From Nocardia ninae NBRC 108245 (GTDB taxonomy: Bacteria > Actinomycetota > Actinomycetes > Mycobacteriales > Mycobacteriaceae), in assembly GCF_007990755.1 (NCBI RefSeq), contig NZ_BJXA01000075.1:1-44496 (forward strand): DNA of 44,496 nucleotides, in the 5' to 3' direction. Shown here one piece after another: positions 18,574 to 20,040 of this stretch. Under the pieces are notes generated by a model. The model was not told the DNA's origin and searched no databases. It was given only the letters and a program-made list of their open reading frames with translations. Both the position numbers and the translations under genes were made by a program. Numbering within the stretch: the stretch's first letter is position 1; the number at the start of each line of letters is the position of its first letter.

Positions 18574-19866
18574 TCACGGGCGGAGGCGGTGAATGTCGCG
18601 GGGGAACAGGGTCGCGTAGCGGATGTTGTCCGCTCCGATCAAGCGGGTGACCCACCGGGCCAAACCGATGGCGAAGCCACCGTGTGGCGGCATGCCGTGC
18701 CGCATGGCTTCGAGATAGGGCGCGTACTCCGCCGGGTCCGCGCCGCGGGCGGCAAGTGCCGAGAGATAGTCGGCGTGGTTGTGCAGCCGTTGGCCACCGG
18801 TCACCAGCTCGAGTCCGCGGAACAGCAGGTCGAAGGAGTTGGTCCAGCGCGGATCACTCGGTTGCGGGTGCGTGTAGAAGGGGCGTTTGACCGCCGGATA
18901 GCCCTCTACCGCAAGGAAATCCGAGTTGAACCGCTCGTGGGCCCACGTGCCGAGGAAACGTTCGTGCTCTGGCGCGAGGTCGGGTTCGGTGGGCGCCGCG
19001 CCGACCAGTTCGAGGGCTTCCCGGAAGTGGATGATCGGGATCCGCTCGGGCACCACCGGCAACTCGGCACCCACGGTTTCCACTGCGGCACCGGCCTTTT
19101 CGCGAACAGCCTCGATCATCGCGGCGAGTGTGTCACGCAGCTGGCCGAGTACGTCGCGATGGTCGCGGATGAAACCGAATTCGACGTCGAGCGAGACGTA
19201 TTCGGCGAGGTGCCGCGCGGTGTCGTGCGGTTCGGCCCGAAAGACCGGCCCCACCTCGTACACCCGCTCGAAGACGCCGGTGAGCATCTGCTTGTACAGC
19301 TGCGGCGACTGGGCGAGGTAGGCGGTCGAGCCGAAGTAGTCCAGCGCGAACACATTCGCGCCGGACTCGGTGGACTGGTCGACGATCTTGGGCGTCGTGA
19401 CCTCGGTGAATCCCGCTTCGTCCAGGTGGCGGCGGAACCCGGCCATCGAGGCGGCCGCGATCCGCCACACCGCCTGCCGGGTGGGGTGGCGCCAGCTGAT
19501 CGCGGCGTGGTCGAGCATGGTCGGCAGGGTGACCCCGAGGCCGGGCCGCCACAGTTCGACCGGCGGTGGCTCGGCCGGTGCACTCAGTGGCGTAATCGCC
19601 GGCTCGATGATCTCGACACCGCCGGGTGCCTTCGTATTGCCGATCGGGGTGCCGGTCACCCGGACCACGGTCTCCTCCGGCAACGCCGAAAGCTGTTCTC
19701 GGACTTGTGGATCCGTTACCACCACCTGCGCGACGCCGGATCGGTCGCGCAGCACGACGAACGTGACGGTCGCGAGTTGTCTGCGCCGGTGTATCCATCC
19801 CTCGACGGTCACCGATCCGCTGTCCGTGCGGGTAGTCGGCAATGCCGAACAGAGCGTGCGTGGCAT
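18574..19866 (-). CDS. Archaeal-type aspartyl-tRNA synthetase, predicted non-discriminating
   Basis: A 430-residue class II aspartyl-tRNA synthetase of the archaeal/eukaryotic (AspRS2) type, without the large bacterial insertion domain of normal AspS. The anticodon-binding OB fold covers about 1-100 (VEGWIHRRRQ, VTFVVLRDRSGVAQVV). Catalytic motifs: motif 2 region VYEVGPVFRAEPHDTARHLA; motif 3 GMPPHGGFAIGLARWV. At two positions that separate discriminating from non-discriminating enzymes (Trp26 and Lys85 of the Thermococcus enzyme) it has His26 and Pro81. That predicts charging of both tRNA-Asp and tRNA-Asn. SD AGGAGGTG precedes the ATG and is sequestered by the T-box leader. A bacterial AspS is presumably encoded elsewhere. 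Confidence 0.9.
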   Translation of the reverse strand: MPRTLCSALPTTRTDSGSVTVEGWIHRRRQLATVTFVVLRDRSGVAQVVVTDPQVREQLSALPEETVVRVTGTPIGNTKAPGGVEIIEPAITPLSAPAEPPPVELWRPGLGVTLPTMLDHAAISWRHPTRQAVWRIAAASMAGFRRHLDEAGFTEVTTPKIVDQSTESGANVFALDYFGSTAYLAQSPQLYKQMLTGVFERVYEVGPVFRAEPHDTARHLAEYVSLDVEFGFIRDHRDVLGQLRDTLAAMIEAVREKAGAAVETVGAELPVVPERIPIIHFREALELVGAAPTEPDLAPEHERFLGTWAHERFNSDFLAVEGYPAVKRPFYTHPQPSDPRWTNSFDLLFRGLELVTGGQRLHNHADYLSALAARGADPAEYAPYLEAMRHGMPPHGGFAIGLARWVTRLIGADNIRYATLFPRDIHRLRP

Positions 19867-20040
19867 CGGTTTCACCTCCTGGTTGCTATCCCCGGGAGGT
19901 GTGGGCGATCGGGTCCGTCGCGGTGCCACCACACCTTCGCAGCGCGATGCGCGCTGCCTCTACTGGTCGAATTCTCGGTGACCGGCCGACGCGGCTCGGA
20001 GTTCGTCACGCTCGTCATCGCCGCATCTGCGAGCTTAGCG
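19867..20040 (-). promoter_or_regulatory. Translational T-box riboswitch for the synthetase gene
   Basis: Reading the minus strand. Stem I: GATGCGGC (20027-20020) pairs with GCCGCGTC (19995-19988); its apical part holds GAC (20007-20005) and AAC (20003-20001), codons for Asp and Asn. AGTA lies at 19964-19961. Stem III: GCAGCGCG-CAT-CGCGCTGC (19957-19939), a perfect 8-bp stem. Antisequestrator: AGGTGTGG (19936-19929), the 7-nt T-box bulge TGGCACC (19928-19922), GCG (19921-19919), loop, CGC (19907-19905), CCACACCT (19904-19897). Competing sequestrator: CACCTCC (19901-19895) with the Shine-Dalgarno GGAGGTG (19879-19873). Uncharged tRNA binding its NCCA end to TGGC would free the ribosome site. 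The bulge C fits discriminator base G73 of both tRNA-Asp and tRNA-Asn. Confidence 0.9.

Follow-up and report, generated by a model that had tools for sequence, protein, structure and literature searches.

The window analysed here, a stretch of 44,496 nucleotides from Nocardia ninae NBRC 108245 (contig NZ_BJXA01000075.1), carries a second aspartyl-tRNA synthetase gene, aspS2, with a leader of T-box anatomy directly 5' of it (approximately 20024-19867, minus strand). An earlier note on this DNA had taken it for a T-box acting on the translation of an archaeal-type AspRS. The gene and the leader elements are given below in window coordinates, all on the minus strand.

18574..19866, minus: aspS2, archaeal-type nondiscriminating-type aspartate--tRNA ligase, 430 aa (NCBIfam and Pfam matches)
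20032..20037, minus: -10-like hexamer TAAGCT, which would make transcription begin close to the base of Stem I (sequence)
19991..20024, minus: ultrashort Stem I, with GCGGC/GCCGC, a K-turn signature (3-nt bulge, GA opposite GA), GAG/CUC and apical loop CGUGACGAA (pairing and two-sided changes)
20005..20007, minus: specifier GAC, complementary to the tRNA-Asp anticodon GUC (conservation in leaders)
19965..19989, minus: probable Stem IIA/B pseudoknot, UCGG-CC-[GGUC]-A-CCGA ... [GACC] (family comparison)
19939..19957, minus: Stem III hairpin GCAGCGCG/CGCGCUGC, 8 bp, strands 19957-19950 / 19946-19939 (two-sided changes)
19898..19935, minus: antisequestrator, with helix A1 GGUGUGG/CCACACC (19935-19929 / 19904-19898), bulge UGGCACC (19928-19922) and helix A2 GCGA/UCGC (A1 pairing; match to model R1 at 19967-19896)
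19873..19901, minus: sequestrator CACCUCC/GGAGGUG (19901-19895 / 19879-19873) across the Shine-Dalgarno, sharing CACC with A1 (comparison and minimum-energy fold)

The 3' half of this anatomy is largely as the earlier note had read it: the seven-nucleotide bulge TGGCACC, the framing helix GGTGTGG/CCACACC, the perfect Stem III and the competing helix CACCTCC/GGAGGTG over the Shine-Dalgarno, upstream of a gene that starts at 19866, are all present. The inner helix, described as GCG/CGC, exists too, its actual extent being GCGA/TCGC. Stem III is flanked by purines, GAGG on its 5' side and GAAGG on its 3' side, which are invariant in sequence in alignment A4 and nearly so in alignment A2.

In profile searches, the product of aspS2 matches NF003483 far above its cut-off (E 2.7e-158; 527.4 bits against 353) and TIGR00458 slightly below it (363.2 bits against 368.4), and contains the Pfam tRNA-synt_2 domain and an OB-fold. 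These matches place it in the archaeal-type nondiscriminating family, its charging of tRNA-Asn being putative. The genome also encodes a bacterial-type AspRS, in a 601-codon frame on contig C62 (aspS_bact, E 1.9e-105 on a 246-residue piece), and the profile search of the genome returned no AsnRS above the model cut-off; the enzyme of the window is thus the second AspRS. The AspRS2 of Nocardia suismassiliense is 94% identical to it.

Model searches and distribution of the leader

The Rfam T-box model (RF00230), which the earlier note had suggested as a check, leaves the window unmatched at the gathering score and the segment 19700-20200 unmatched at E up to 10. This negative result is not decisive, because the ileS T-box elsewhere in this genome (G000:C56, L001), the only RF00230 match there, also stays below the cut-off, with 42.7 bits against 93 (E 1.6e-7); the model is therefore weak for such leaders. 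The gene that follows this other T-box matches the ileS model over its first 489 codons (E 3.3e-159, under the cut-off for partial sequence). Applied to AspRS2 leaders, RF00230 found 9 of 9 with a long Stem I (L019, L020, L022, L024-L029; E 4e-5 to 2e-12, all sub-gathering) and, in the same run, the ileS leader and none of three compact leaders (L003, L013, L017). A second set, searched at E up to 0.1, gave 3 of 3 long and 0 of 10 compact leaders, for a total of 12/12 long leaders, all under the gathering score, and 0/13 compact leaders besides the window. The miss on the compact form is a limit of the model, and a match to a single model is not a defining feature of a T-box.

An independent covariance model, R1, derives from 21 non-Nocardia leaders. 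It matches the window with 71.7 bits (E 6.7e-16, the next best match in the window search being at 0.044), and in the whole genome it again singles out the leader (E 1.5e-13, next best 0.095). Among 198 relatives searched for AspRS2, with orthologues defined by an E of 1e-138 or better, the leader is present at 28/28 loci (L002-L029; the L029 match begins only at residue 98). A decayed copy was seen in genome G026 (L030, L130), where the leader runs almost straight into aspS2 at about codon 291, so that the last third of the gene remains and the start, the Shine-Dalgarno and two thirds of the gene are gone.

In a named collection, the leader stands at 78 of 80 actinobacterial AspRS2 loci, these being the best 80 of a larger number of matches; a pattern search did not find it at the other two (L047, L082). 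A first leader pattern found 57 (a few at false places), a second 63, and a further 15 carried UGGCACA. Genera among the best 80 loci include Nocardia, Kineosporia, Nocardioides, Kribbella, Microbacterium, Oerskovia, Terrabacter and Intrasporangium; the relatives set and the named set overlap, some loci belonging to the same genomes. The bulge variant UGGCACA replaces UGGCACC in 15 of the 78 leaders from the best 80 loci (L044, L048, L049, L069, L070, L072, L074, L080, L084, L088, L095, L096, L109, L111 and L115).

Within the genus, R1 matched 23 of 128 genomes at an E of 0.01 or better, 19 strongly (65 bits or more) and 4 weakly (27-32 bits). All 19 strong matches lie directly before aspS2 as detected by tblastn (18 full, one truncated), and the stretches around the 4 weak ones contained no AspRS2. 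Across a class sample of 394 genomes, R1 matched in 25 at 1e-4 and AspRS2 in 21 at 1e-100, all 21 falling within the 25, an association that is partly expected since the training set of R1 consisted of AspRS2 leaders, some of them perhaps from the same species. T-box and AspRS2 match are at most about 400 bases apart in 20 of the 21. In the remaining genome (G214; L156, L189) they lie 3.4 kb apart, aspS2 being apparently interrupted after about residue 90 and continuing some 3 kb on. The four other R1 matches of the class sample precede a bacterial-type aspS (G332, G507), a nondiscriminating-type AspRS gene (G386) and serS (G428). Those before bacterial-type aspS (L151 and L149, respectively) are compact T-boxes with UGAC, in genomes whose search for AspRS2 at E 1e-100 gave no match. 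The G386 leader (L163) has a long Stem I and the specifier GAC, its AspRS, a partial sequence, falling slightly short of the NF003483 cut-off, and the serS leader (L161) has a long Stem I and the specifier UCC.

Alternative folds over the ribosome-binding site

Helix covariation was assessed in 93 distinct leaders from the relatives and the named set, the latter limited to its best 80 loci (106 leaders before removing repeats). The pattern that located them constrained most of A1's 5' strand and left the 3' strand free; A1 pairs at all seven positions, G-U allowed, in 93/93. In 89/93, a Shine-Dalgarno-like motif is masked by a helix of 5 bp or longer, and A1 and the sequestrator overlap by at least one base, likewise in 89/93; in the window they share CACC. 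Exceptions are L024, whose sequestrator has 4 bp, L018, whose helix does not overlap A1, and L103, L112 (both Actinopolymorpha) and L115, in which the sequestrator script found none. In the two Actinopolymorpha leaders the AspRS match starts 131-161 nt past the bulge.

The two helices change together. The A1 helix GGAGUGG/CCGCUCC goes with the sequestrator UCCUCC/GGAGGA (L044, L048, L097, L109, L114), AGUGCGG/CCGCACU with CACUCC/GGAGUG (L025) or ACUCC/GGAGU (L026-L028), and the A1 strand CCACAUC with AUCUCC/GGAGAU (L094). Such co-change fits a switch, as a switch requires one strand with two alternative partners. The ON structure has 97.3% of its cells paired in 16 genus leaders, against 32-46% when slid, with 7 two-sided pairs, 4 of them in Stem III; in 21 non-Nocardia leaders the figures are 95.8% against 36-50%, with 8 two-sided pairs, 6 in Stem III. 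The antisequestrator is nearly invariant within Nocardia, where it shows one two-sided pair, so that its covariation comes from other families. An apparent covariation of the sequestrator inside Nocardia was discarded, its two-sided cells stemming from misaligned rows (L016, L018). Across homologues, the covariation of bulge-framing and sequestrator helices on which the earlier note made its reading depend is thus present in the 93 leaders. That note would have given up the T-box on the joint absence of a model match and of covariation: the Rfam match is indeed absent, while the covariation is not.

Folding of both states predicts -64.2 kcal/mol with A1/A2 forced and -67.0 kcal/mol with the sequestrator forced, the OFF state lying 2.8 kcal/mol lower and coinciding with the free minimum. 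Compared with shuffled sequences, the whole leader is not unusually stable (z -1.24); its 3' part has a z of -2.30.

It is very unlikely that the leader acts on transcription, through a terminator and antiterminator, in place of translation. Most T-boxes do so, according to the available part of a review (PMC7583486), and three leaders (L103, L112, L115) have no detected sequestrator; however, the 3' hairpin of the window holds the Shine-Dalgarno and is followed by AAACCGATG, with no U-run, and a helix lies over a Shine-Dalgarno-like motif in 89/93 distinct leaders.

A compact Stem I and the segment that follows

What the earlier note missed, while its T-box reading is supported, is the compact architecture, in which an ultrashort Stem I runs into a probable IIA/B pseudoknot. 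The 100 distinct leaders divide into 31 long and 69 compact ones, 14 rows that the script left ambiguous having been settled by eye (L046 as long, 13 as compact); in a few rows (e.g. L051, L055, L060, L098) the length script picked up a second UGAC, or a GAGG lying too early. Stem I has 98.7-100% of its cells paired and two-sided changes in both helices, the basal one reading CGCCGC/GCGGCG, GCAGC/GCUGC, CCGGC/GCCGG or GGGC/GCCC elsewhere. A TAnnnT motif occurs 19-43 nt 5' of UGAC in 51/56 compact leaders and in 0/56 in a control interval 60 nt further up, the search range having been set post hoc; from this placement we infer that transcription probably starts at Stem I.

A single nucleotide separates Stem I from the sequence UCGG-CC-GGUC-A-CCGA...GACC, a probable H-type pseudoknot in the position of Stem IIA/B. 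With its K-turn in Stem I, of which the 3-nt bulge and GA/GA are conserved, and this IIA/B pseudoknot, the window appears to share both elements with the ileS type. Comparison of 14 leaders, picked by hand like their elements, reveals variants of the pseudoknot hairpin (GCGG/CCGC in L012, CGGGU/ACCCG in L018, CGGG/CCCG in L017, ACG/CGU in L057, CCG/CGG in L106) and of the knot (GGCCC/GGGCC in Kineosporia, GGUCC/GGACC in Kineococcus, GGUCA/UGACC in Microlunatus, GGC/GCC in L017), and a fixed-order template fits 13/14, two elements overlapping by one base in L041. Alignment A5, which joins Stem I and the pseudoknot, has 97.3% of cells paired against 29-46% when slid, and a two-sided change in each of its four helices; its shuffles reach the same pair number in 73/500, and its knot-helix count is unsafe because the Kineosporia rows are one column off in the knot. 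Within Nocardia (16 genus leaders) the knot helix shows no two-sided change, and in several rows the pseudoknot script preferred CGGU/AUCG over GGUC/GACC. Tests of the pseudoknot in single leaders were mostly not significant, with 0 to 66 of 100 shuffles scoring at least as high as the real sequence. In the Nocardioides, Microbacterium and Oerskovia leaders no fold could be assigned to the segment 3' of Stem I.

The window leader has neither an S-turn Stem II nor the elbow-binding distal part of Stem I, and no room for either. Other leaders vary around this form. Eight, from Terrabacter, Humibacillus, other Intrasporangiaceae and Flexivirga, have 22-24 nt from specifier to Stem III, and since just 13-15 nt remain after Stem I, the pseudoknot seems absent there. 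Eleven Kribbella leaders combine a long Stem I with 23-25 nt from specifier to Stem III, and L019-L029 a long Stem I with 65-125 nt. We lean towards the view that actinobacteria hold a minimal class of Asp T-boxes that would bind tRNA in the absence of both the elbow-binding end of Stem I and an S-turn Stem II: only the IIA/B pseudoknot would be left in Nocardia, Kineosporia and Kineococcus, and Terrabacter, Humibacillus and Flexivirga would make do, seemingly without a pseudoknot, with a roughly 30-nt hairpin, 13-15 nt of linker and the discriminator.

As a kind, the T-box is known; its compact architecture appears to be a new variant. The nearest system is the actinobacterial translational ileS T-box, which, in the portions of its descriptions available to us, has a short Stem I with K-turn, a IIA/B pseudoknot, Stem III, a UGGN bulge and Shine-Dalgarno sequestration (PMC1262725, PMC7583486, PMC10651847). 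The window has all of these in common with it, the pseudoknot probably so, but differs in its GAC specifier, UGGC bulge and AspRS2 gene, in lacking the S-turn Stem II, and in a pseudoknot that follows Stem I after one nucleotide. The glyQS T-boxes, as far as the accessible part of PMC7583486 goes, do without Stem II like the window, and the Kribbella AspRS2 leaders share their long Stem I and short span; they are, however, transcriptional, with a long elbow-binding Stem I, whereas the window combines an ultrashort Stem I with a pseudoknot and a covered Shine-Dalgarno. The transamidation operon T-box of Clostridium acetobutylicum (Saad et al., via the accessible parts of PMC4206432 and PMC4052509) likewise controls Asp/Asn-tRNA formation, but it is an Asn/Glu two-codon, transcriptional element of a Firmicute, where the window is Asp-specific and, by its anatomy, translational.

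In the part of a 2005 study available to us (PMC1262725), actinobacterial T-boxes are reported only before ileS; TBDB, by the accessible part of its description (PMC7778990), scanned Actinobacteria with the class II model. A literature search by title and abstract yielded no paper on an AspRS2 T-box leader, the full tables of TBDB and earlier surveys being beyond reach. It is quite possible that aspS leaders are already listed in TBDB, Vitreschak 2008, Gutierrez-Preciado 2009, Sherwood 2015 or 2018, and less likely that the missing Stem II is already discussed there.

The specifier and the proposed switch

The apical loop of the compact leaders reads UGAC-R in 68 of 69 distinct cases (five rows, L002, L003, L005, L012 and L111, settled by eye), most clearly in L017 (GGGG-AGUGACG-CCCC), and UAAC in one (L003). 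Long leaders carry GAA-GAC-(A/C)C in the canonical specifier loop in 30/30 parsed cases, with a pattern that allowed GAC or AAC only. In the same slot the serS leader (G428) reads GAA-UCC-A, and the presence of a Ser codon in this sister leader provides a check on the assignment. Acceptor stems, read by hand, give G73 to the single tRNA-Asp(GUC) gene found in the genome and to both tRNA-Asn genes found, and A73 to tRNA-Glu(UUC). The match between bulge C and G73 that the earlier note expected is therefore borne out for tRNA-Asp(GUC); the UGGC bulge suits Asp and Asn and is unsuited to tRNA-Glu(UUC), on whose A73 GAA (Glu) was rejected as specifier, this being the only Glu tRNA compared.

A second AAC follows GAC on its 3' side in 30/69 compact leaders (26 by script, 4 by eye), in several genera and at two distances, and the other 39 lack it; the Nocardia leaders L014 and L015 carry ACC instead. 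The earlier note had offered both apical triplets, GAC and AAC, for tRNA-Asp or tRNA-Asn. The first stands, in 68/69; the second is weak, as it lies partly in the apical helix and occurs in 30/69 only. AAC as sole specifier was rejected, being neither conserved nor free of the helix. The specifier is most likely GAC, for tRNA-Asp. Nocardia suismassiliense, a close relative of the window, has AAC (Asn) at the specifier position itself (L003, L036).

We regard it as unlikely that the T-box reads tRNA-Asn through AAC, or two tRNAs through adjacent GAC and AAC, which would tie AspRS2 to tRNA-dependent Asn synthesis. Such a reading draws on the nondiscriminating type of AspRS2 in a genome with no AsnRS above cut-off, on G73 in both tRNA-Asn found, on the AAC of L003, the closest relative in the 198-relative search, and on the following AAC of 30/69 compact leaders inside and outside Nocardia; a two-codon precedent, there Asn and Glu, is provided by the Clostridium acetobutylicum transamidation operon, going by the available part of PMC4052509. 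Yet GAC is kept in 68/69 and a compact T-box also precedes bacterial-type aspS, while the following AAC is missing in 39/69, varies between two distances where present and is replaced by ACC in L014 and L015.

That the leader is an operator for AspRS2 itself or another protein, with no tRNA sensing, has next to no probability in our estimate: the conserved hairpin has an anticodon-loop-like apex and synthetase autoregulation is known in other bacteria, but long orthologous leaders match the Rfam T-box model, the UGGN bulge fits the tRNA discriminator and the serS sister leader carries a Ser specifier.

The reading we favour, with a probability of about 0.86, is that the leader is a compact translational T-box that senses tRNA-Asp charging and controls translation of the second, archaeal-type AspRS. 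The proposal of a translational T-box before this gene draws support from R1, the covariation, the association with AspRS and the Rfam-recognised long orthologous leaders. In the OFF state, with uncharged tRNA absent or the tRNA charged, CACCUCC would fold onto GGAGGUG and hide the Shine-Dalgarno. Uncharged tRNA-Asp would make two contacts, one between its anticodon GUC and the GAC specifier in the Stem I apical loop, the other between its 3'-terminal GCCA and the UGGC bulge, and so stabilise A1/A2. In the ON state A1/A2 would then reclaim CACC from the sequestrator and free the ribosome-binding site, so that AspRS2 may be made when the housekeeping AspRS fails to keep tRNA-Asp charged, a backup role that, like tRNA binding and switching, is put forward from sequence.

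An Asp-specific translational T-box occurs in many genera of actinobacteria, where one and the same gene can be preceded by a full-length, a Stem-II-less or a minimal version, and its compact form escapes the standard Rfam model. The accessible part of a review holds Stem II to be essential where Stem I is truncated; the minimal class, if true, would be a natural counterexample to this view, and long and short leader forms of the same gene would have been preserved side by side. This makes testable the question of what holds the codon-anticodon pair in a T-box that has neither of the two known tRNA-gripping elements. For the bacteria themselves, a charging-controlled second AspRS would bear on how they might manage when the main enzyme is lost or inhibited.
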